IMG/VR virus record: IMGVR_UViG_3300002144_000390
Coordinates: 1-36,214 of that record
From: a virus
Length of the DNA stretch: 36,214 bases
Strand: one strand, 5' to 3'
Below the pieces are notes generated by a model that was not told the origin of the DNA, searched no databases, and saw only the letters and a list, made by a program, of their open reading frames with translations. Below, piece by piece: positions 15,601 to 33,939 of this stretch; the stretch's first letter is position 1; each line of letters begins with the position of its first letter. Both the position numbers and the translations under genes were made by a program.

Positions 15601-16635
15601 TTAAACCCCCGTGAATTGTGCAAAGACAAGTGCGTAATATGGCTGTACGTAGTCTTGACCACCGCCTTCTGCTGTTATTGGCGCAGTAAATGGGTGGGTG
15701 TGATCAGCGCTTACCCCCGCGGTGTTGCCAGCCACGCTATGTGAGTGGTCGATGTTTGCTTCTGCGATGCCGATATAAGTTGCGGATGACAATGTAGTAA
15801 ATGCACTAGGTGCTTGATTGCCAGAAGAAGTCCCACTCGTATAAGCGCCGCCATTTGTACCGATTTGATTTGTAGAAGTTTCTTGATGAATGTGCCCCGG
15901 GTCGCTGACGGCGTGAGTGTGCCCTTGGTTTTTAGACATGGCACCAGTTTGTGAGTCAAAAGCGTGGGTGTGACCTACGCTTTCATTGCCCGTGTTGCCA
16001 TTAACAGACCCGCCGTGGGCGTGACTTGGCATCTGCGCGGTGCTGATCTTAAGTGAGCCACCAGTGGTGCCTTTCGCAAATACACTGCCCGATGCAAGGG
16101 GAAACTTGTCACGCAAATCAACCGTGCCACTTGTACCGTCACAGACATGCCAACCGCTAGGCAACACCGCCGCCGCCGTAAACATTCTGATTTCACCAAC
16201 GATTGCTAATTTATTGGAGATGTTTGCAATTGCACCGTTTATTGTCGTGTCAACGTACTGTTTATTTGTGACGGCCGTCACACCTGACGGGGCTGGCTGA
16301 ACAAACACTTGGGCGTTGCCAACCATCGAAATGCCGTTGGTGCTTACTTCTGCGACCACAGAGCCTTTAGTAGACACCGCAACAATGCCGTCACCTTTAC
16401 GGCAGATTCCCGTGTTGGGGTCGTTTGTGAAAGCCATGCCCGGCGCTGAAGCCGTACCGTCAGCAATGCGTAATGAGCCACGCATCCCGCCAAGACCGTC
16501 ACGGTCAAGTGAGTCGGTCAATGCCGTCGCCATATCGCTCAGCGTGTTGTTTGCCCACTCTGCGGTAATTAACTCACCCGCAGCGACTGGGTTGCCGTCT
16601 GGTAAAAAGTAAACACCGTTTTGATTGCGACTCAT
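15601..16635 (-). CDS. Tail fibre with phage collar domain and His-rich tip
   Basis: This 344-residue receptor-binding candidate has an N-terminal part (MSRNQNGVYFLPDGNPVAAG) that looks like a virion attachment segment, and a middle with trimeric-fibre style repeats. From about residue 145 a phage tail collar domain follows (VGEIRMFTAAAVLPSGWHVCDG, then VDLRDKFPL). Behind it come at least six paired histidines (HAH, HTH, HTH, HIH, HSH, HTH), a pattern in other fibre tips that binds metal ions along the trimer axis. The ATG at 16635 overlaps the stop of the upstream gene (TAATG). It is the last large structural gene before the lysis cassette, which suits a distal fibre. Confidence 0.85.
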   Translation of the reverse strand: MSRNQNGVYFLPDGNPVAAGELITAEWANNTLSDMATALTDSLDRDGLGGMRGSLRIADGTASAPGMAFTNDPNTGICRKGDGIVAVSTKGSVVAEVSTNGISMVGNAQVFVQPAPSGVTAVTNKQYVDTTINGAIANISNKLAIVGEIRMFTAAAVLPSGWHVCDGTSGTVDLRDKFPLASGSVFAKGTTGGSLKISTAQMPSHAHGGSVNGNTGNESVGHTHAFDSQTGAMSKNQGHTHAVSDPGHIHQETSTNQIGTNGGAYTSGTSSGNQAPSAFTTLSSATYIGIAEANIDHSHSVAGNTAGVSADHTHPFTAPITAEGGGQDYVQPYYALVFAQFTGV

Positions 16636-18416
16636 TATTGCTCCCAAGGTTTATATTGATCGTCTTGAATGGCGGCGCCTGTTGCGCCACCAATACCGCC
16701 CGCCCATGATTTCGCGCGCCGTAAAGCGTCAGCCACAGGGTTTTGCCAGTCATACTTTGCGCCTACGCCATACCTACGTCCGAACGTGGAGTGCGCAGCG
16801 GTTGAGCCAACAATCGCGGGAAGCGTAAACATGCTCCCCGGCAAAGCAGCCGCTCCACCGCCAAGTATTAAACTGGTTACACCTAATCGCCCCGCAGTAC
16901 CGCTGTCGGGGTAATTGTTACCTAACACATCGAACGCCGCTTGATGAACGTCTTGGCCTTCGAGCCGCCCTTCACGGAGCGCCGTTGATGCGTTGTTAGA
17001 TTTAGCTTGTTGCCTAAACGCTTTGAGGCCTTGCGCTGGGGTAAAAACCCCATCGCGGTTAGCAGCCCCCTCCGCACCCGATGCACGAGCTGATACTTGG
17101 TACTTGTTGTAGTCGCGGTTGAGGTTGCGCAAAGGTTGAATATCACCACCCAATCCTTGTCGCTCCACTGCATCAAACAAAGCGTTACGCGCGTCTGATA
17201 ATGCGAGTCCAGTACGGCGCTCGGTCATTGACGCGTTAGGCCCTTGGAATTCTTTACTGGACAAACGCATTTCGTTGGTCAAATCTTGAATGCCGCCACC
17301 ATCCATACGTTGTGGCGCGGATGGCCCTACATTTGTAGACACTTGCGCACTAGTGGCTTGCGCACCCCCACCGTTAATGTTCCAAGGTGGAAGGTTATGG
17401 TCGCCACGCATAGCGTTAACTTCAGCGTTAAAATCATTAAGGCCAGAGGTACTTAGGCGACGATTACGCACAATGTCGTCCATCGACTGTTTAATAAGAG
17501 GGTCGTTGGGGTCAAGCATCAAGTCTTTTGTCACTTCAGGGAACTTTTCGCGAAAGTGATTTCCAATGATGTTATGCCCTTCGCTACCAACCTGATTTGA
17601 TTTAATAGGCACGCCGCTTTGTGACATCACATAGGCGTTGTACTCATTGATAGCGCCACGTCGCCCAAAAGCTGTTGAATCCCCGAGAAAAGGGACAGAC
17701 ATCAATTTATCTTCCGTGGATTTAAAAAACGGGCCCGCAGCTCCACCCCAAGTTGGGTAGATGCCTTTGTCTATAAGTTTTTGGGCTTGTGCGGTTGGAT
17801 TGATTGGTCTAAACGCACGGGCCGCAGCACTCATCACGCCCGTGCCAATCATGTCACCCGCTGCTGCATATGCGCCAGCGTTAGCGCGCTTGGCTCCATC
17901 ACCATGGGTGAAAGCCGCGGCTGTAAGCCCTTGAGCTATTGCTCGGGGGAGAAATGACGCGCCGCCCGTACCCACAGCGGCGGCTACTTGTGGAATTGCT
18001 TCAACCAAGCCCCCGCCGATGTTAGGTATGCCCTCTTCTTTGAGCTTATCGACATGGGCCGCGCCCTCATCAATAGTCTGTTGGTGGGGGTAAGCCGCTT
18101 CGTCGCTAGGTGCGCTAAAAGGGTTTAAACTTCCGCCCACTTTGCCAGTACTGTTGAGCATGGGAAACAAACCACCGTAAATCATCTTTTCAGCGCCATG
18201 CTTCATCTGCGCGCCCACCGCTTCATGTAAAGGTGTTTTACCCACCCCAACTTTAGGGCCGTCACCACTAGCGTAGCGCGCAGCCATTTCATCGCGGCGC
18301 TGTGCTGTCGCTTCCTTGTTACCACGAAACAGTGTTGGGGCATCAAACTGATCAAAAGGGTTAGCTACAGCGCCCGAAGAAGCGGGAGCGTCAAACTGGT
18401 CGAAAGGGTTTGACAT
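16635..18416 (-). CDS. Internal virion / DNA ejection protein with PFDQFD motifs
   Basis: This 593-residue protein is without an enzymatic motif. The N-terminus carries two copies of NPFDQFDAP (starting at residues 3 and 19). The middle (about 110-205) is rich in Ala and Gly with hydrophobic stretches (VEAIPQVAAAVGTGGASFLP), and a second such stretch lies near 525-555 (LGVTSLILGGGAAALPGSMF), which could insert into membranes. The rest looks helical. Its place between the transglycosylase-bearing protein and the fibre, and its size, fit a podovirus ejectosome component that leaves the capsid and helps conduct DNA across the envelope. The four-base-style overlap with its upstream neighbour suggests a fixed stoichiometry. 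Confidence 0.72.
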   Translation of the reverse strand: MSNPFDQFDAPASSGAVANPFDQFDAPTLFRGNKEATAQRRDEMAARYASGDGPKVGVGKTPLHEAVGAQMKHGAEKMIYGGLFPMLNSTGKVGGSLNPFSAPSDEAAYPHQQTIDEGAAHVDKLKEEGIPNIGGGLVEAIPQVAAAVGTGGASFLPRAIAQGLTAAAFTHGDGAKRANAGAYAAAGDMIGTGVMSAAARAFRPINPTAQAQKLIDKGIYPTWGGAAGPFFKSTEDKLMSVPFLGDSTAFGRRGAINEYNAYVMSQSGVPIKSNQVGSEGHNIIGNHFREKFPEVTKDLMLDPNDPLIKQSMDDIVRNRRLSTSGLNDFNAEVNAMRGDHNLPPWNINGGGAQATSAQVSTNVGPSAPQRMDGGGIQDLTNEMRLSSKEFQGPNASMTERRTGLALSDARNALFDAVERQGLGGDIQPLRNLNRDYNKYQVSARASGAEGAANRDGVFTPAQGLKAFRQQAKSNNASTALREGRLEGQDVHQAAFDVLGNNYPDSGTAGRLGVTSLILGGGAAALPGSMFTLPAIVGSTAAHSTFGRRYGVGAKYDWQNPVADALRRAKSWAGGIGGATGAAIQDDQYKPWEQ

Positions 18417-25526: not shown

Positions 25527-26516
25527 TTAGGTCGTAAAGAGTCGACCTTGGAATTGGGCGCCGCTTGAAGTCAGATTTCCGGCAAAACCTAAAATCTGAA
25601 CTTCTGCATCTTGGTTAATCGAGTAGCGACGATCAGGCGAAAGCGCGACCATGTTGCGCTGTGCATGAGGTCTCCATGACAAGAACTTGGTGTTCAAGAA
25701 GAACGCTGTGTTAGTGGGGCATGCGCCACCAATACCACCATCCAAAACTACATCGGCGTCCATGAACTTAATCGTCGGGAAGCCAAGGCTTGCAGACTTT
25801 GGATCCATAAAGCGCTGTTGAGGTTGCAAGCTACCCATGAATGCTGACCAAAACTGGTTGTCACAGACAATCATGTCGGGGCGGTCTGAAGCACGAATTA
25901 ACTTAGACCACAAAGCGTTCATAAACGTTTGCACGTTGCCTGAAGTGATACCTGTCGTTGAGCCACCTGATACCTTGGCGTCAAATGCTTGGTTACGCCA
26001 GAAGTTCCACGTTGCGCGGTCAATACCACCGTAAACACCTGTAGCGGGGGCGGTTGAAACCGCAGCGCCCAAGCCTGTAATTGACTTGCCACCTGCTGCT
26101 GTGCCGTCACCGTAGATTGATGCAGACAATTGGTTAGCCATCGTTGATTCGGCAACCGTTAGACGGGCTTCCATCAAGTCGATAAGCGCTTCTTTACCAC
26201 TGTTCTGCAATTGCTCAAGACCAGAGATAACAACAGGCACGGCGTACTGTTTGATTTGATACTCTGCGGCTGAAATAACGTCAGATGCGGCTACTGGTAG
26301 TAAGTCGTAACCGCTGTAAAAACCACCATTGGGGTTTTCAGCAAACGAAAGTTCTTCCCAAATAACTGTACCACCAGAGATGGTGCGCACCTTGCCAGAA
26401 GCATTTAGCTTAGAAAGGATCGCGTTGTTTTTGGTGACGTTGTCCGCAATAGTTTTACTACGGTTTTGGATTGTAGTAGCAATGATGCTACTGATAGCTG
26501 GGTTGGCTGAGGCCAT
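25527..26516 (-). CDS. Major capsid protein
   Basis: This 329-residue protein is of HK97-fold type judged by size, order and content. It has an N-terminal helix (SSIIATTIQNRSKTIADNVT), then beta-rich segments (RTISGGTVIWEELSF), a loop with YSGYDLLPVAASD, a helix-rich middle (EALIDLMEARLTVAESTMAN) and a C-terminal strand region (SPDRRYSINQDAEVQILGFA). It follows the scaffold gene and has a strong ribosome site (AGGAG, 7-8 bases before the ATG). It lacks an obvious prohead-cleavage propeptide, consistent with the separate scaffold gene. A leader with two hairpins precedes it and a terminator follows, which fits a highly and separately expressed gene. Confidence 0.88.
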   Translation of the reverse strand: MASANPAISSIIATTIQNRSKTIADNVTKNNAILSKLNASGKVRTISGGTVIWEELSFAENPNGGFYSGYDLLPVAASDVISAAEYQIKQYAVPVVISGLEQLQNSGKEALIDLMEARLTVAESTMANQLSASIYGDGTAAGGKSITGLGAAVSTAPATGVYGGIDRATWNFWRNQAFDAKVSGGSTTGITSGNVQTFMNALWSKLIRASDRPDMIVCDNQFWSAFMGSLQPQQRFMDPKSASLGFPTIKFMDADVVLDGGIGGACPTNTAFFLNTKFLSWRPHAQRNMVALSPDRRYSINQDAEVQILGFAGNLTSSGAQFQGRLFTT

Positions 26517-26690: not shown

Positions 26691-27836
26691 TTATCTCACA
26701 GATTGATCCATTGCAAGTCTCAATGAGTCCCTAATTGAATTTGACCCCATTTCACCTGAACCACCCAAGGCTGGAGAGCCTCCAACACTCACCGCGGCTT
26801 GCCGCGCCCGTTGTGCTGTGTTGTTAAGACTCTGCGCGGCTTGGGCCTGTGCCCGTTGCTGCATTACTCGGCTAATTTCTGGGTGGGCTTGGCACGCCGC
26901 GTTGTAAACATCTTCCAACGTGTAGGGCAAATTGTTACGCTCGCGAACATCAATCAGATCGGCCATTAAGTGGCGCACATCATCCATGAATTCGGCTTTT
27001 CTACTGAACTCAGCGATTTCCGCGTTTGCTTGACGGTCGCGCTCTTGCGCGGCCATCTGCTGTTGTTGGGCCAGTTGCTGCTGCATTTGGCGCAGTGGCG
27101 CAAACTCTCTCTCGTATTGCTCACGCATTGCTGCAACTTCTGGGCGCTCTTGGGCCACTACTTGACCTGATAACGCTTGGTCGAGCTGCCCCACGTCAAT
27201 ACCGAACTGTTTAACCATATTAGCCACCATCTGCGCCTTGTGCGCGGGGGGCGCTGTGCGCAGGGCTTGGGCCGTCTGCATCAAGCTACCGATAGCGGCC
27301 ACCACATTACTACCCTCTGCCTCAATCGTGCCACGGTAGGGGTCTACGGCCTTCTGTACGGCATCTGCAAATTGACGGACTTGTGCGGTTTCGCGCAACG
27401 TTTGTTGCACTTGTTGCTCATGGCGCACAATCTCGGATCGGGCTGCTTGCGGAATGTCTTTCCAAAACTCTCTAGCTTCAGGTTTCCAAGCTTGGGGCGC
27501 ACGCTCAAGTGGGTCTTTTTGTGCGGGGGGCTGACCGACTTTCTCGGCCGCTTTTATGCCCTCTTCGGGCACTTTAGGGGCGATTTGAGCAGTTTTTTGC
27601 TCCAATACGGGGTTATTTTGGGCGTCTTTGGGCGCAAACTTGCCTGACTGGTCTCGGTTGTATTCGCGTTGGGCTTTCTGTTCAGCGGTCTCGCTGACAT
27701 GCGCTTCGCTCTCTGCGGCGTAGGTTTGTTCTGACGGTGTGGACTCTAGTGGCGAGTCAACGGCTAAGTCATCAGTTGTTTCAAATGACGACTCAAGTGC
27801 GTCGCGTAAGCTGTTTTCTTCTGTGGTGGTGTTCAT
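26691..27836 (-). CDS. Scaffolding protein
   Basis: This 381-residue, strongly charged and Gln/Ala-rich protein shows an acidic N-terminal part (TTTEENSLRDALESSFETTD), a long helical middle with heptad-like Gln and Leu (RQMQQQLAQQQQMAAQERDR), and a C-terminal region with EISRVMQQRAQAQAAQSL. It shows no enzymatic motif and no beta domain. Disordered acidic start plus long helices, placed directly before the major capsid gene, is the typical profile of a phage scaffold. It starts two bases after the preceding stop. The C-terminus is a candidate coat-binding helix. Confidence 0.78.
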   Translation of the reverse strand: MNTTTEENSLRDALESSFETTDDLAVDSPLESTPSEQTYAAESEAHVSETAEQKAQREYNRDQSGKFAPKDAQNNPVLEQKTAQIAPKVPEEGIKAAEKVGQPPAQKDPLERAPQAWKPEAREFWKDIPQAARSEIVRHEQQVQQTLRETAQVRQFADAVQKAVDPYRGTIEAEGSNVVAAIGSLMQTAQALRTAPPAHKAQMVANMVKQFGIDVGQLDQALSGQVVAQERPEVAAMREQYEREFAPLRQMQQQLAQQQQMAAQERDRQANAEIAEFSRKAEFMDDVRHLMADLIDVRERNNLPYTLEDVYNAACQAHPEISRVMQQRAQAQAAQSLNNTAQRARQAAVSVGGSPALGGSGEMGSNSIRDSLRLAMDQSVR

Positions 27837-27838
27837 AA

Positions 27839-28165
27839 TTACCCTCTATTAAGTTGATCAATTGCTTGTTGAATATCACGCTTATTAATCGTGCCTTTTT
27901 GGCCTGAGTAATAAGATTCGCGCTCACTCTTTCGTCGCTCAAACTCACCCTTGTAGTCATCAAAGGTAGCTAGACCGTGTTGCCGTAAATATTGGCGGTG
28001 CTTGGTTCTTGATGAAATATCTATGCCATCGGTTGTGGACATACCGTCATACCCTCTGTCTCCCCACAGCATGGCATCGCCCTTGTGTCGGTCAGGTACA
28101 TGGTCAGCAAAGACCTCGACTAACTCGAAAGTTTCAGGGTCTTGAACAAATCTTCGTCTACTCAT
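27839..28165 (-). CDS. Hypothetical late protein, 108 aa
   Basis: This is a small basic-acidic mixed protein starting MSRRRFVQDPETFELVEVF. It has a conserved-looking HVPDRHKGDAMLWGDRGYDGM segment and a helical C-terminus (KRDIQQAIDQLNRG). I start it at 28165, where GAGGAA gives a good ribosome site; the longer frame to 28249 reaches into the upstream gene. Similar small proteins occur beside portal or scaffold genes in podoviruses, but I cannot name a family. It probably belongs to the head module. Confidence 0.7.
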   Translation of the reverse strand: MSRRRFVQDPETFELVEVFADHVPDRHKGDAMLWGDRGYDGMSTTDGIDISSRTKHRQYLRQHGLATFDDYKGEFERRKSERESYYSGQKGTINKRDIQQAIDQLNRG

Positions 28166-28172
28166 TTTTTCC

Positions 28173-30101
28173 TCACAATAAATACAACAGGGCTTCGATA
28201 TCATCTTCGTCAGAACCCGTTGGTGCGCGGTTTCTGAGAAGCGATGCAATTAATTGAGATGCGCTATGGTCAAACGGTTGTTGCGCCTCTAGCTCTTCAA
28301 CCAAGTCAGGCAGGGGCTGCTCCTGAACTTCAGGGACTAAAACTTCATCCTTTTCCCACCACTGCTTAACGTGTGGCATCGCGATGTATGGGCCACTACC
28401 GCCACCGTGGTGTGGGTCGGGTACAGGCTCTGGGTTAATTATCTTAATGACGGCAATGGCAATGTCGTTGGCGTTCTTAACTAAGCCCGTAACAAAGTCG
28501 CTGTCGTAAACCGTCGCATCAACCACATCGTTACGGTTAATGACTGTGCCTGTGACAATGGTGCTGTCGCTGACCAAGCCAGATGCGATATCGTTTCGGT
28601 TGGTGGCTGTTCCTACTACTGCATCAAAATCTAGGATTGAACCAACAACTAAATCGTTGCCGTTAACAACTGTTCCGCTTGCAATGTCAGTATCAAAGAC
28701 CGAGCCACTTGCCTTGTCATTAGCGTTGGTGACTGTACCCGTTACGAGGTCTGTGTCAGACACAATCGCGGTTGCAATGTCGTTCTTGTTTGTCACCAAA
28801 CCAAAGACAAAGTCTTCATCAAATACTGTACCAACGACCGTGTCAGAGCCGTTCTTGATGTCAGCGTTTACCCTAATATATGCCTGAACATTACATGTTG
28901 CTTTGTCATCGGCATTAACTGTTGTGCCTGTGACAATGTCACTGTCAGAAACCAAGGCTGACGCAATGTCGTTTTTGTTGGCTACTGTGCCAGTGACAAA
29001 GGCTAGGTCTGCAATTAAGCCTGAAACGGCATCACTCGTGTTAATTACTGTGCCAGTTACGATGTCTGAAATACTGACAAGACCCGCGGCTGTGTCAGTC
29101 TTATTCTGAATTGTTGCCGTGACAAAATCTAAGTCACTTAGGAACGCTGTCGCCACGTCATTGGCGTTTGTAGCCGTGCCGGTAACGAAATCTTCATCCA
29201 CCACTATTGCCGTGGCAACGTCTGATTTGTTGGTCACAACACCCGTAACAAAATCAAAATCAGAAACTAACGCTGAAACTAAATCATTTCGGTTAAGAAC
29301 CGATCCCGTCACGGTACCCGTATCAAGCATTGACCCGCTTGCTACGTCAGAATTGTTTACAACCGTACCCGTGACAAAGTCTTCACTAAATACCGTTGCT
29401 GTGACCGCGTCATTGGCGTTAGTGACTGACCCAGTAACAAAGTTCTTGTCAGATACCGTGGCCGTGGCTAAGTCACTTCGGTTAACCGCTGTACCAAAGA
29501 CAAAGTCTTCATCAAATACCGTCCCGACAGCCACATCGCTTCGGTTCGTGATGTCAGCAGATACACGCACTGTAGCTTGTATGTTGCTCTGTGCCGTATC
29601 GCTCTTGTTGGTGACTGTACCCGTGACAAAGTCAGTGTCAAACACTACACCAGAGGCTACATCGCTTCGGTTCGTGATGTTGCCTGTGATGAAGTCAAAG
29701 TCAGCAACTAAGCCCGTGACATTGTCAGACTTGTTGACCACACTACCTGTCACAAAATCAAGGTCAGCCACTAAGCCAGAAACCACGTCATTCTTGTTGA
29801 CGGCTTGGCCTGTTACAAAATCACGGTCAAATATCGTGCTTGTGGCTACGTCATTACCGTTGACCACGTTGCCTGTTACAAAATCTTGGTCAAATATCGT
29901 GCTAGTGGCAATATCGTTGCGGTTGGTGACGCTACCTGTAACGAAATCTTGGTCAAATACTGTGCCGCTGACGTTATCGTTGCGGTTAATGACCACACCT
30001 GAGACGTTGGCAGTATCAACGCCCCATTTGCTGTCGTTAAATCGAGCCACGCCCCATTTTGCAGGGGTTAGCTCCACAGTTAAGTTGACCTTTTTAGGCA
30101 T
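28173..30101 (-). CDS. Virion-operon protein made of 25 tandem 21-residue repeats
   Basis: In this 642-residue protein, residues about 32-548 consist of 25 repeats of exactly 21 residues, consensus close to VTGTVxNxNDxATxxVxDxDF. An Asp (the D of N-x-N/S-D) falls at residue 42 and then every 21 residues up to 546 without one insertion or deletion. Two units deviate in the same way (around residues 172-189 and 403-420: IQATVRVSADI, VQAYIRVNADI), 231 residues or 11 units apart, and the units after them match each other too. Alternating hydrophobic strands and Asp/Asn turns suggest a beta-solenoid, perhaps metal-binding. The ends differ: a short N-terminal segment, and a C-terminal one with PHHGGGSGPYIAMPHV. 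Located in the head operon, it may be a long capsid fibre or decoration. It overlaps its upstream neighbour by 8 bases. Confidence 0.85.
   Translation of the reverse strand: MPKKVNLTVELTPAKWGVARFNDSKWGVDTANVSGVVINRNDNVSGTVFDQDFVTGSVTNRNDIATSTIFDQDFVTGNVVNGNDVATSTIFDRDFVTGQAVNKNDVVSGLVADLDFVTGSVVNKSDNVTGLVADFDFITGNITNRSDVASGVVFDTDFVTGTVTNKSDTAQSNIQATVRVSADITNRSDVAVGTVFDEDFVFGTAVNRSDLATATVSDKNFVTGSVTNANDAVTATVFSEDFVTGTVVNNSDVASGSMLDTGTVTGSVLNRNDLVSALVSDFDFVTGVVTNKSDVATAIVVDEDFVTGTATNANDVATAFLSDLDFVTATIQNKTDTAAGLVSISDIVTGTVINTSDAVSGLIADLAFVTGTVANKNDIASALVSDSDIVTGTTVNADDKATCNVQAYIRVNADIKNGSDTVVGTVFDEDFVFGLVTNKNDIATAIVSDTDLVTGTVTNANDKASGSVFDTDIASGTVVNGNDLVVGSILDFDAVVGTATNRNDIASGLVSDSTIVTGTVINRNDVVDATVYDSDFVTGLVKNANDIAIAVIKIINPEPVPDPHHGGGSGPYIAMPHVKQWWEKDEVLVPEVQEQPLPDLVEELEAQQPFDHSASQLIASLLRNRAPTGSDEDDIEALLYLL
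28452..30006. repeat. 63-bp tandem repeat array (coding)
   Basis: About 25 diverged units of 63 bp, the DNA counterpart of the 21-residue protein repeats. The repeats hold frame throughout; similarity is greater in protein than in DNA, which argues for old duplications under selection. Because of the periodicity the opposite strand is also open for over 1 kb (29119-30132), but that frame is a shadow. Confidence 0.85.
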
Positions 30102-30477
30102 CGCCTTCCACGATCTTAAAGCCTGTCAATGACAAGACAACGCCTTTGGTCACGTTTGCGGTGGACATCTGGATTTCACCCGTGCCACCTGCGCTAGAGA
30201 CCGTAAAGTCAGCGACCCATGCCGTGCCTTTAGCAATCCTCGCCCAAGTGATTACGCCGTCAGCAGAGACGATTGCGTCAGCGGGGTTGGTAAAGGTCAG
30301 CGTGGCATTTGCGACTGCGCCAGCGGGGTCTTTAAGCGTGAATACAGCAAGGGGGGTGGTTGCGTCACCACCGGGGGCGGGTTTAGCACCACCGTAGAGG
30401 GTTAATGTTGCAGCGCCAGAGGCTGCATTGATGTCTTGCATACGTGCGTTACGCAGGGCTAGGTTATATGAGGGCAT
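30094..30477 (-). CDS. Small beta-rich structural protein
   Basis: This 127-residue protein has beta-strand composition (SGAATLTLYGGAKPAPGG; TPLAVFTLKDPAGAVANATL; GVVLSLTGFKIVEGDA), resembling small Ig-like or head-decoration proteins. It sits between portal and the repeat protein. The start MPSYNLALRNARMQDINAA and the lack of an enzyme motif agree with a structural role. Because it overlaps the repeat-protein gene by 8 bases, the two may be made together and perhaps interact. Confidence 0.68.
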   Translation of the reverse strand: MPSYNLALRNARMQDINAASGAATLTLYGGAKPAPGGDATTPLAVFTLKDPAGAVANATLTFTNPADAIVSADGVITWARIAKGTAWVADFTVSSAGGTGEIQMSTANVTKGVVLSLTGFKIVEGDA

Positions 30478-30478
30478 A

Positions 30479-32599
30479 TCAAACTCCTAATGGTTGTTGT
30501 TGGGGTTGTTGAGGGGGTTGGTTCATTTGTGGTGGCATGGGCTGGACACCCACAACCTTGCCCATCTGGTCACGAATGACCTGCTTGGGGGCGCTCATGG
30601 CTTGCATCATTGCGTCAAGCTTTTGGGCGATTACGTTAGCTTCGGGGCCTTGTTGGCTTTGCTGAAGACCACCACCCACAACCATCGGTATCGGTATGGG
30701 CAGCTCAATTCCAAGGGGGTAAAGCGACACCATTGCATCTGCTAAATCTTTGCCAGCACTTGCCCGGCGTTGCATTGAACCCGCGTTCTTTTCTTCAATC
30801 TCAGCCTGAATTCGACCCACCTCCGCTTGCTGCATCGGGTCTGGCTCTTTGGGCTTCGTCATTTCCTGTTTGGCCGCGTTAATAGCTTGGTCAAATACGC
30901 CCTCAATGCTCTGGAAGCCCTTAAACCCTGCCATGAACCACTTAGACATCTCAAGCAACAAAGGCGCGGCGGCGGGCGCTGTTTGCACCACGGCACCCGC
31001 TTGCTGCAAGAACTGACCTAGCGCCGTCAATGCCTCGGTGCGCGACTCGTTCTCGGCCTTACGGTCGATAAACGCGATGCTGTCGGCCTGTACTTTGACC
31101 CGATACTTAGCCACCTCGGGCTGTTTAATCAGGCTAATTGCCTCTTGCGCGAACTGCGCGTCGGGCGAGGCCATGATGTTCGAGCGCATCGCAATGGTTT
31201 CAGGCTGAAAGTGTCGCGCAATAATCTCAGCCTTAATGGCTAAAGATTTCTGCACGAACTTGGCCACGTACATCTGTTTTAACTGCACACGGGTCGAGCC
31301 AAACTGTGCCTTAATCTGCTGCGCACCGAGCGTCTCGCTCGCCTTGGTGTTGCCGCGCATGATGTCGCTGATGCCCAGCACCTCGTAAATCTGACCCTTG
31401 ACCTGTTCGCGCAACATGACGAGCTTTTCAATCACCGCAGCGACTTCAGCAACGGGCAACCAGTCAATCTTTGACTTTAAGCCACCGCTCTCAGCGAACA
31501 TCGCCCAGTTGTCCACGGGGATTAACTGATTCTCAACCGCGTCGTTCAACATCCTCTGCACACCTTCGGCAGACTTGTCGTAGATGCCGACGACTTTCAT
31601 CGCTCTGGTCAAATAGCTGATGCGGGTGTTAATTTCATCGAGTTGTTCAAATTGATCCTGCGCCATGATGTAGTCAGCGCGTGGCACAAATTCAAGCGTT
31701 GTCGCGTTCGCAATCAAAGGCTGCGGGCACGGCCAGAAATCATCTAACTGCAACGGGTCATCGCGCTCATCAAGCAGAAAATCGCAACCCTCGCTGTACC
31801 AAACCACTTTCTTGGTGCGCTTGTCCCAAATCTCCCACACCTCGGCACGCTGCCACGGGTCTTTAGGTAAATCCACACGCTCAACATTATTGGTCTGCTT
31901 TAAATTCGACTTGATCGGCACACGCTTGCCAATGTCTTCACCAAAACGTGTCACCAACTGTTCACGGGTCATATAAACCCGACGTCCTACCCACCTAACT
32001 TCTTCCCAAATCCTTGCGGGTGAGTACAAAAAGTCGTCCCAGTGGACATAATCTAACGGGGCATCCTCATCGGATATACGCTCGAACTCCCCTGCCGGAC
32101 TCATCTCCATACCCGTCATCGGGTCAGTCACCGCATCGTACTGCTGCATCTCGGTGTCTACTGAGTATCGCGCCCAGACCTGACCCAAGCCAATCGTTGT
32201 CCAGTCCAATATCGAGTACTGAATCGCAGCGTTTGAGGTGCTTCCATCGGTTTGCACATCATTATTTAAGATGCGCTCTAAAATCTCCGCCCCAACTCGG
32301 CTCGCCTCATCATTAAAGTCGTCATACAAACGCTTAACATCCGCCTTGGGCGGCTGGGCGTACAGCATGCTCATCACAACCTGCATGCTCGACCAAAATA
32401 AGTTCACACGGAATTCACCCTCTTGATCCGCAGGGCGCTTGTCTAAATACCGCTCGTTAATTCGAACAGCACTCTTGCGAAACTTCTCCATGAACTTCTT
32501 GGACGCTTTGAGCTCGGAGCCCCAGAGCGCGGAGGTACCCTTCTCGCCCTGTCCAAAGTCTTCAGCGTTCTCTACGCTCGTTGCAATATCTGTGCTCAT
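30479..32599 (-). CDS. Portal protein
   Basis: This 706-residue protein, by position directly after the large terminase and by size, is the dodecameric portal. Supporting features are SMLYAQPPKADVKR and WFRVNLFWSSMQVVM-like entry segments near residues 70-95, the acidic wing, the hinge-like ADYIMAQDQFEQLDEINTRISYLTRAM stem region (in two parts) and a Gln-rich C-terminal barrel (PPQMNQPPQQPQQQPLG) of the P22 kind. The ATG at 32599 follows the terL stop by two bases; an in-frame TTG at 32644 lies within terL and is rejected. The C-terminal Gln-rich tail could enter the capsid. Confidence 0.88.
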   Translation of the reverse strand: MSTDIATSVENAEDFGQGEKGTSALWGSELKASKKFMEKFRKSAVRINERYLDKRPADQEGEFRVNLFWSSMQVVMSMLYAQPPKADVKRLYDDFNDEASRVGAEILERILNNDVQTDGSTSNAAIQYSILDWTTIGLGQVWARYSVDTEMQQYDAVTDPMTGMEMSPAGEFERISDEDAPLDYVHWDDFLYSPARIWEEVRWVGRRVYMTREQLVTRFGEDIGKRVPIKSNLKQTNNVERVDLPKDPWQRAEVWEIWDKRTKKVVWYSEGCDFLLDERDDPLQLDDFWPCPQPLIANATTLEFVPRADYIMAQDQFEQLDEINTRISYLTRAMKVVGIYDKSAEGVQRMLNDAVENQLIPVDNWAMFAESGGLKSKIDWLPVAEVAAVIEKLVMLREQVKGQIYEVLGISDIMRGNTKASETLGAQQIKAQFGSTRVQLKQMYVAKFVQKSLAIKAEIIARHFQPETIAMRSNIMASPDAQFAQEAISLIKQPEVAKYRVKVQADSIAFIDRKAENESRTEALTALGQFLQQAGAVVQTAPAAAPLLLEMSKWFMAGFKGFQSIEGVFDQAINAAKQEMTKPKEPDPMQQAEVGRIQAEIEEKNAGSMQRRASAGKDLADAMVSLYPLGIELPIPIPMVVGGGLQQSQQGPEANVIAQKLDAMMQAMSAPKQVIRDQMGKVVGVQPMPPQMNQPPQQPQQQPLGV

Positions 32600-32601
32600 T
32601 T

Positions 32602-33939
32602 TTAACCGATCCTGTTCGACTGTTGGGGGCCGCAACTTTCCCAAAGATCATTTAAAGAGAACGCGTAATGCGCCCCCCTATCTTTGCGTGGCGGGGGCGT
32701 CGCTGTGGTGGTGATCGCCTTGGCTACTTTCTTTGCAACTAGCGCAAAATATCTAAACGAATCCGATGCGTGAGAGTGCGCGTCGTGCTTGGGCTTTTGC
32801 CTAAATGCCCCCGCCCGTTCGTCCCACTCTCGGCAATAGGCTCTCAAGTGCTCCACACCCTCGTAGGTGCTTTGCTCGTTGAACCAGCAATACGGTATGA
32901 CTTGGCGTGCGGCCTCAATCCCATCTTGTAATCCCATCTCGGGGACTAGCTTGGGGTTAATGCCTTGCTGCAAGAACGTCTCAATCATCGAACGGCCCGT
33001 CTGCAAGCTCTTGGCTTTCGCGTCGTGGGGTAACCACACGGTCTCCACCTTGTACGGCAGCGCCTTGATCCACTCGATGTAATGACTAATCGACTGGCTG
33101 TTGGCTTCGTAGAAGTCAATTAGCCTGTAGCCCTCGGATGTGGTCTGCCAGACCCACCAGCTGCACGAGTCGGTGTAGCCCAAGTCGGCCACCACCTCCA
33201 CGGGCAGGTCTCGGTCTACGGGCCAGTCTTTGACCCTTCCCTCGTCGTAGAGGCGACCAATCTCTTTGGCCCAGTAGGCGCCGGGGATCGCCGCGTCAAA
33301 TGAGCACTCGAACTCGCGCAGGTACGCGTCTTCGGTCATTTGGGCCTGTGCGTCGCGCAATTCGTCTGGGTGCAATAGGTTTGAGGTTGACGCTTTGACC
33401 TCAATTAACATGTGCGTCTCGGGGTTCATGCGGGCCTCTTCGCGCAGGGCCCAGAACATATTCTTACCTTTAGGTGTGCCCGCGAAGATAGCCCAGCCAC
33501 GTCTATCAGCCAAGGCGGGGCGCAGTACGCTATACCATACCGTAGGTCTCATATCGCCTACCTCATCGAGCACCACGCCATCGAAGTACAGGCCACGCAA
33601 GCTGTCTGGGTTATCTGCGCCCGCAACAAATATCTTAGCCACCCCACCCGCTGATTTGAGGCTGATAGTTAATTCTGATTCGTTTGGTTTTCCAACTTGA
33701 TAGGGCTTGCTGAGCTCTTTAAGGTAGCTCCATGCCACGCGCTTGGCCTGTTCACGGAACGGGGCGAGGTAGGCGAATTGGGGGCTCGGACGTTTAGTCT
33801 CCAGCGCACCCAAGATGAGGTCAACACATGCCGCCACTGTTTTACCAGCTCTGCGGTGACAGACGAGGGTTGTCCACCTTTTGCCACGGTTATGTAGCTC
33901 TACACCGAAAGGGCGCGGTTCGTATTCAGTAAGAAGCAA
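32602..33939 (-). CDS. terL: Terminase large subunit
   Basis: This 445-residue packaging motor has an ATPase domain with Walker A CHRRAGKT (27-34) and Walker B GVVLDE (121-126), and coupling motif FAGTPKGKN (152-160). Its nuclease domain has Asp252 (VADLGYTDS) and a final acidic site in HDAHSHASDSFRYF. It starts at TTG (33937-33939): the frame has no earlier ATG, AAGGA lies five bases upstream, and the first residues (LLTEYEPRPFGVELHNRGKRW) are the usual start of this family. Transcribed from the terS side with a 199-base gap in between. A minor start codon in a single-copy motor gene could limit its expression. Confidence 0.95.
   Translation of the reverse strand: MLLTEYEPRPFGVELHNRGKRWTTLVCHRRAGKTVAACVDLILGALETKRPSPQFAYLAPFREQAKRVAWSYLKELSKPYQVGKPNESELTISLKSAGGVAKIFVAGADNPDSLRGLYFDGVVLDEVGDMRPTVWYSVLRPALADRRGWAIFAGTPKGKNMFWALREEARMNPETHMLIEVKASTSNLLHPDELRDAQAQMTEDAYLREFECSFDAAIPGAYWAKEIGRLYDEGRVKDWPVDRDLPVEVVADLGYTDSCSWWVWQTTSEGYRLIDFYEANSQSISHYIEWIKALPYKVETVWLPHDAKAKSLQTGRSMIETFLQQGINPKLVPEMGLQDGIEAARQVIPYCWFNEQSTYEGVEHLRAYCREWDERAGAFRQKPKHDAHSHASDSFRYFALVAKKVAKAITTTATPPPRKDRGAHYAFSLNDLWESCGPQQSNRIG

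Follow-up and report, generated by a model that had tools for sequence, protein, structure and literature searches.

The window analysed here is the 36,214-base IMG/VR record IMGVR_UViG_3300002144_000390, from an Mx8/BUCT555-like podovirus, and its gene at positions 28173–30101 (minus strand) encodes a protein composed for the most part of 25 units of 21 residues. This gene overlaps a small gene (30094–30477) of the family phrog_3758, which on profile comparison belongs to the family of the garland protein gp014 of Agrobacterium phage 7-7-1 (PDB 9RKV). We consider it reasonably probable that a two-gene cassette encodes an optional virion appendage, with the repeat protein as its shaft and the garland-family protein as the other product; in more general terms, the pair formed by a garland-family and a 21-residue repeat protein probably represents a virion appendage of adjustable length that has gone unrecognised.

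The 25-unit repeat array

The repeat gene had been placed at these same positions in a preliminary description of this DNA, and its coding strand is the minus strand. The gene and the parts of its product are as follows:

28173..30101, minus strand: repeat protein gene, 642 amino acids (aa), predicted 67 kDa, isoelectric point ~4 (open reading frame (ORF), translation, composition)
30018..30101, minus strand: N-terminal cap, residues 1–28, with the aromatic motif AKWGVARFNDSKW (alignment and motif scan)
28443..30017, minus strand: indel-free array of 25 x 21-residue units, residues 29–553 (autocorrelation and unit listing)
29514..29576, minus strand: first deviating unit, residues 176–196 (ATVRVSADITNRSD...) (unit listing)
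28821..28883, minus strand: second deviating unit, residues 407–427 (unit listing and super-period test)
28176..28442, minus strand: C-terminal region, residues 554–642, with GGG..P...W and an acidic-aliphatic end SDEDDIEALLYLL, conserved in relatives

As previously proposed, the unit listing gave 25 units with a conserved Asp every 21 residues from 42 to 546 and zero indels. This Asp (D14 of the unit; residues 42, 63 ... 546) and N11 are kept in all 25 units, followed by V5 (23/25), G7 (22/25), D1 (21/25) and D3 (18/25), with V9, A/V16, G/A18 and V/I20 being nearly invariant besides. Self-identity at lag 21 was 0.449, whereas the highest value at any lag in 100 shuffles was 0.171, and individual units are ~45% identical to each other. 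The repeats, which had been called exact, are so in their 21-residue period and not in their sequence; the earlier picture of an exact period combined with sequence drift agrees with this lag-21 identity and the lack of indels over 25 units. Pro, Trp and His are absent from the array, which has a single Cys and an Asp content of 13%, and the alternation of residues in V5-G7-V9 and A16-G18-V20 would fit two short strands per unit, with the small residues facing inward.

The best lag was 231 residues, i.e., 11 units (identity 0.547), and under permutation of the unit order the probability of any lag being equally good was 0.0006. Both deviating units precede DEDFVFG and lie 231 residues apart, and the 11-unit super-period already suspected is confirmed. 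Since the lag-11 excess was weaker without the deviating units and their neighbours (11.2 vs 10.0 identities), and third codon positions of the array showed no such excess, the super-period would fit a block of 11 units having been duplicated long ago. A plus-strand ORF (29119–30132) was rejected as an independent periodic gene, its period arising from the antisense overlap with the repeat gene.

No match to the repeat protein was found in Pfam, NCBIfam or PDB. The SAF domain (PF08666) was discarded as a repeat artefact, given that only the whole-protein score lay at the cut-off and no single stretch passed it, and the PHROG helicase and parvalbumin matches were likewise attributed to repeats or composition. 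Literature searches yielded no description of 21-residue repeats in a setting like this one. A close match to a well-described family, which had been named as an outcome contrary to the preliminary description, did not emerge; relatives of the protein exist, but they are themselves undescribed.

Pairing of phrog_3758 with period-21 proteins

The partner of the repeat gene is the following:

30094..30477, minus strand: phrog_3758 / garland-family gene, 127 aa (PHROGs E 1.7e-16)

A profile built from the family of this 127-aa protein, without 7-7-1 sequences, matched 9rkv_A (E 2.6e-11) and 44NX (E 2.4e-10). The 9RKV entry is the tail-fibre model of phage 7-7-1 and contains gp014, whose dimers encircle the distal baseplate around the receptor-binding fibres, according to passages of PMC12796354. 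Passages of PMC10811340 describe the same arrangement for gp125 and gp127 of phage Milano and a resemblance of the garland fold to T4 gp8 and A511 gp105. In other phages, phrog_3758 genes are found among minor tail or baseplate genes.

Co-occurrence was examined in 46 capsid-related operons with a readable portal–scaffold interval, with a periodicity threshold of z>5. A phrog_3758 gene was present in 11 of them, seven of which carry a periodic protein above the threshold; the remaining four carry short members of the 21-aa-repeat family, and these stay below z>5 because of their length. None of the 35 operons without a phrog_3758 gene encodes a periodic protein (Fisher 6e-6, with an effective number that is smaller because some of the 46 loci are near-identical, near-duplicates being contained in the locus sets). 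At 68 further loci, found through phrog_3758 only, the periodic neighbours had almost without exception periods of 21, 42 or 22, with units mostly of the T[NE]xxD..S..G type. Among control loci, periods of 21–23 occurred only in L037, L038, L047 and L054, each of which likewise has a phrog_3758 relative, and the periods of 21, 42 or 22 only in L037 and L038. In named phages, period-21 neighbours of phrog_3758 were detected in Curvibacter P26059A, Caulobacter Seuss and Agrobacterium 7-7-1, with a weak signal in Mycobacterium Send513 (z 4.8) and a period of 20 in Pseudanabaena Pan4. An acidic-aliphatic C-terminus was present in 14/37 such repeat proteins vs 12/1622 other ORFs. Tblastn searches among phages with the other repeat proteins gave zero matches, and the pairing is not named in the literature or family libraries searched.

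The T[NE]xxD proteins (for example L152, L153, L178, L185; phrog_38872; P26059A_7 of the Curvibacter phage) resemble the window protein in their period of 21, their TN/TE..D..G motif and their phrog_3758 partner, and often in their acidic-aliphatic C-terminus. They differ in operon position and in often having other N-terminal domains.

Two further proteins were noted in phrog_3758 neighbourhoods. Gp22 of Mycobacterium phage Charlie (L187:5288-6505), a minor tail protein with ~21-residue 'GxLxAxLxxAxxxLxGxQ' repeats recognised by eye, is encoded two genes before a phrog_3758-like gene that also occurs in other mycobacteriophages. In Sphingopyxis phage VSN-002 (MZ127829.1), an ORF with glycine-rich repeats and 'TTGALTGQLGSxSGSAARF' repeats (L090:5956-7419), unannotated in the record, adjoins a phrog_3758-like gene.

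The optional cassette in the head operon

Portal and capsid proteins group the window with Myxococcus phages Mx8 and Mx9 and Stenotrophomonas phage BUCT555; the window major capsid protein is 59–66% identical to those of these three phages. The order of the head operon is terminase large subunit, portal, phrog_3758 gene, repeat gene, small gene, scaffold-position gene and major capsid protein, which agrees with the earlier placement of the repeat gene in the head operon with the portal on one side and the scaffold on the other. Besides the cassette, the operon comprises:

32602..33939, minus strand: terminase large subunit (phrog_2 E 5.8e-37)
30479..32644, minus strand: portal protein (phrog_12082 E 1.1e-156; 37–40% identity to Mx8 and Mx9)
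27839..28165, minus strand: small conserved head-operon gene, 108 aa, ATG at 28165
26691..27836, minus strand: scaffold-position protein, 381 aa, Mx8 p47-like (position and hidden Markov model search)
25527..26516, minus strand: major capsid protein (phrog_9953 E 4.8e-112; NCBIfam capsid_maj_Podo E 9.5e-93)

The stop codon of the phrog_3758 gene and the ATG of the repeat gene overlap by 8 nt (ATGCCTAA, read at the junction), and 8 nt separate the stop of the repeat gene from the ATG of the small gene. Such tight junctions are expected of a single operon and suggest translational coupling.

Relatives of the repeat protein were reached only through capsid synteny combined with a C-terminal profile, namely by a capsid-profile scan of IMG/VR (80 loci) followed by a scan with that profile; neither tblastn among phages nor scanning viral contigs with the window protein as a single sequence gave any match. 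In the closest relatives of the phage, L010 (91% identity in the major capsid protein) and L011 (86%), the portal is followed by the small gene and both cassette genes are absent; the cassette is therefore optional in the portal–scaffold interval.

The repeat proteins of this slot in Mx8-like operons (L012–L017, L096–L108), defined here as the local family, share a layout of an N-terminal aromatic motif (WGTAVWDDSKW / LWDQGLWDEARW, corresponding to the cap motif of the window protein), 21-residue repeats and a C-terminus ending in DTDEDDLEALLMNL or similar. Their unit counts are 3 (161 aa), about 5, 7–8 and up to 9 (290 aa), compared with 25 in the window, and all keep the 21-residue spacing, save for single +1 shifts in three of them and one spacing of 25. 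In these relatives too, a phrog_3758 gene lies immediately upstream of the repeat gene, as read from ORFs or by profile.

A profile built from the relatives only scored the window protein at 226 bits, compared with 54 for its reversed sequence, and hhalign of the window protein against the relatives gave a 98% probability. Because the reversed protein reached 1e-15 with the family profile, E-values from repeats only were distrusted and the flanks were tested apart from the repeats; the relatives-only profile matched the C-terminal flank of the window protein by itself (E 5.9e-6), and this match shows homology to the slot relatives independently of periodicity. The window protein accordingly shares with the local family its 21-residue register, a homologous C-terminal region and the phrog_3758 gene directly upstream. 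Metal binding by the Asp/Asn-rich turns, as had been suggested, is weakened because the DxD turn (D1, D3) is absent from the relatives, which keep only D14 and N/E11.

Accessory genes cluster in the portal–scaffold slot. Large, variable proteins of 640–790 aa lie between portal and scaffold at L011:5378-7672, L013:5657-7585 and L037:4998-7355. Proteins in the same slot of L019, L058, L063 and L067 end in RRRREEE(I/W)LLLM and lack 21-aa repeats; the C-terminal tail is therefore wider than the repeat family.

Elsewhere in the window, 22220–23773 matches phrog_5107, labelled amidase; this lysis label looks doubtful because the position corresponds to that of Mx8 p52 and the putative head-closure gene of Mx9. 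The product of 16635–18416 (593 aa, late operon) had no PHROG match at E 0.01.

Virion evidence and alternative explanations

The garland systems of 7-7-1 (gp014 and its paralogue gp012) and Milano (gp125, gp127) are those most readily compared with the window cassette. Their garland proteins belong to the same family as the product of 30094–30477 and correspond to this partner, not to the repeat protein; both phages are myophages whose garland sits at the baseplate, whereas the window derives from a podovirus with the pair in its head operon. The calculated masses of 7-7-1 gp014, gp012, gp011 and gp010 agree with those of gp103, gp106, gp107 and gp108, which were identified in virions by mass spectrometry (PMC3517404 Table 1). 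Of these proteins, gp010 (37.5 kDa, gp108 in PMC3517404; L095:9934-10956) showed 21-residue periodicity (z 5.9), so that a period-21 protein and the garland paralogues gp014 and gp012 are present in virions of 7-7-1. The product of gp009 (L095:10950-12377) is periodic as well and is missing from the list in PMC3517404, and Milano encodes homologues of the same genes, with periodic proteins nearby. The likeness of gp010 and gp009 to the window protein lies in the period and in a gene position just downstream of a garland-family gene; their repeats differ (GDWxYPxYS; VAPMADAFV) and form a less regular array. By analogy, the window repeat protein, earlier described as a virion-operon protein, is probably also a virion protein, and gp009 and gp010 would be candidates for the unassigned capsid fibres of 7-7-1 or for a garland string.

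In the mechanism that we favour, the first cassette gene would supply the small garland-family protein, and the second, overlapping gene a protein that begins with a short aromatic cap, continues with 25 beta-rich units of 21 residues and ends in a C-terminal region. The 25 units would form a rod or ribbon, which the acidic-aliphatic tail probably anchors to the virion. The appendage would probably be located at the portal/tail vertex beside the receptor-binding fibres, where it may aid first contact with the host, and its length would be governed by unit number, ranging from 3 to 9 in relatives and having reached 25 in the window phage, possibly in part through the block duplication.

Several observations weigh against this proposal. 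For the full protein, with 11 relatives in the input (12 sequences), AlphaFold predicted two strands per unit at a mean predicted local distance difference test score (pLDDT) of 52, and for eight register-stacked units (5 sequences) the score was 42, neither being a confident structure; Foldseek gave zero matches at E<=0.001, the weaker ones, each above this value, being mostly to beta-helix proteins. The beta-solenoid envisaged in the preliminary description is hence a putative fold, with two predicted strands per unit. The T[NE]xxD repeat profile matched P26059A_7, L037 and L038 and missed the window protein in a hit list extending to E 10, for which reason the kinship of the window protein to that class would rest on period, context and C-terminus. 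Furthermore, the text searched from the cryo-electron microscopy study of 7-7-1 (PMC12796354) makes no mention of gp009–gp012, and the podovirus cassette sits among head-operon genes, away from tail genes.

The low AlphaFold confidence for the lone chain would also fit a partner-dependent fold, as demanded by the chief alternative, in which the repeats do not fold by themselves and each unit or unit pair docks one garland dimer, the repeat protein threading the garland row as a string and fixing the number of beads. This is in line with the strict pairing of repeat proteins with phrog_3758, and passages of PMC10811340 liken the Milano garland dimers to beads on a string, leaving the string or glue unclear, and describe an extended chain of another protein that crosses the related dimers in A511. 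However, AlphaFold drew regular paired strands, and if the docking sites were independent, the linkers joining them would be expected to accept indels, while the unit spacing is nearly constant; this near-perfect spacing disfavours a floppy string, but not docking at equal pitch. We regard the string as unlikely.

The position of the cassette beside portal, scaffold and capsid genes recalls, instead, the fibre or clamp of the capsid surface put forward in the preliminary description, where the protein would attach to the shell of the head, or to its vertices, and project as a beta-solenoid. Vertex capsid fibres of unassigned protein occur in 7-7-1 (passages of PMC12796354), which has garland-family and 21-periodic genes, and phi29 and Andhra possess head fibres (gp8.5 and gp13, respectively), which are elongated appendages of short-tailed phages. 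The phi29 fibres are trimeric helical supercoils and those of Andhra combine a beta-prism with a coiled coil; for neither does the description include a beta repeat of 21 residues or a garland-type partner. On the other hand, the one member of the partner family whose place in the virion is known, that of 7-7-1, lies at the baseplate, phrog_3758 genes elsewhere keep the tail and baseplate company noted above, and Milano shares the gene homologues although the passages of PMC10811340 mention no capsid fibres. The constant partner is of a garland type, which in Milano and 7-7-1 belongs to the receptor-binding complex at the end of the tail; a capsid location is disfavoured, and we hold it to be possible but rather doubtful.

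A protein that acts inside the virion or during assembly, for instance one that is ejected or associates with the scaffold and whose repeats are incidental, would suit the portal–scaffold position, where some variable genes of relatives are not fibre-like. It would agree poorly with the pairing with a garland-family virion protein, with the presence of the 7-7-1 analogue in virions, and with an optional presence and strong length variation that are unusual for assembly factors; we consider it highly improbable.

A bolder version of docking, which we offer as distinctly speculative, would make the repeats a modular thread, each unit or pair binding one garland dimer, with unit number setting the length of a beads-on-string appendage. 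If true, this thread design would be common to podo-, sipho- and myophages, would provide the string that is sought for the Milano garland and would offer candidates for the 7-7-1 capsid fibres.

Garland-type proteins were located in virions only recently, and passages of PMC10811340 leave open what binds their row. Garland-family genes recur beside proteins with an exact 21-residue period across many otherwise different phages, and this pairing provides a testable garland partner as well as a set of candidates for virion fibres whose protein has yet to be assigned. The naturally occurring range of 3 to 25 units makes it possible to ask whether unit number sets appendage length.
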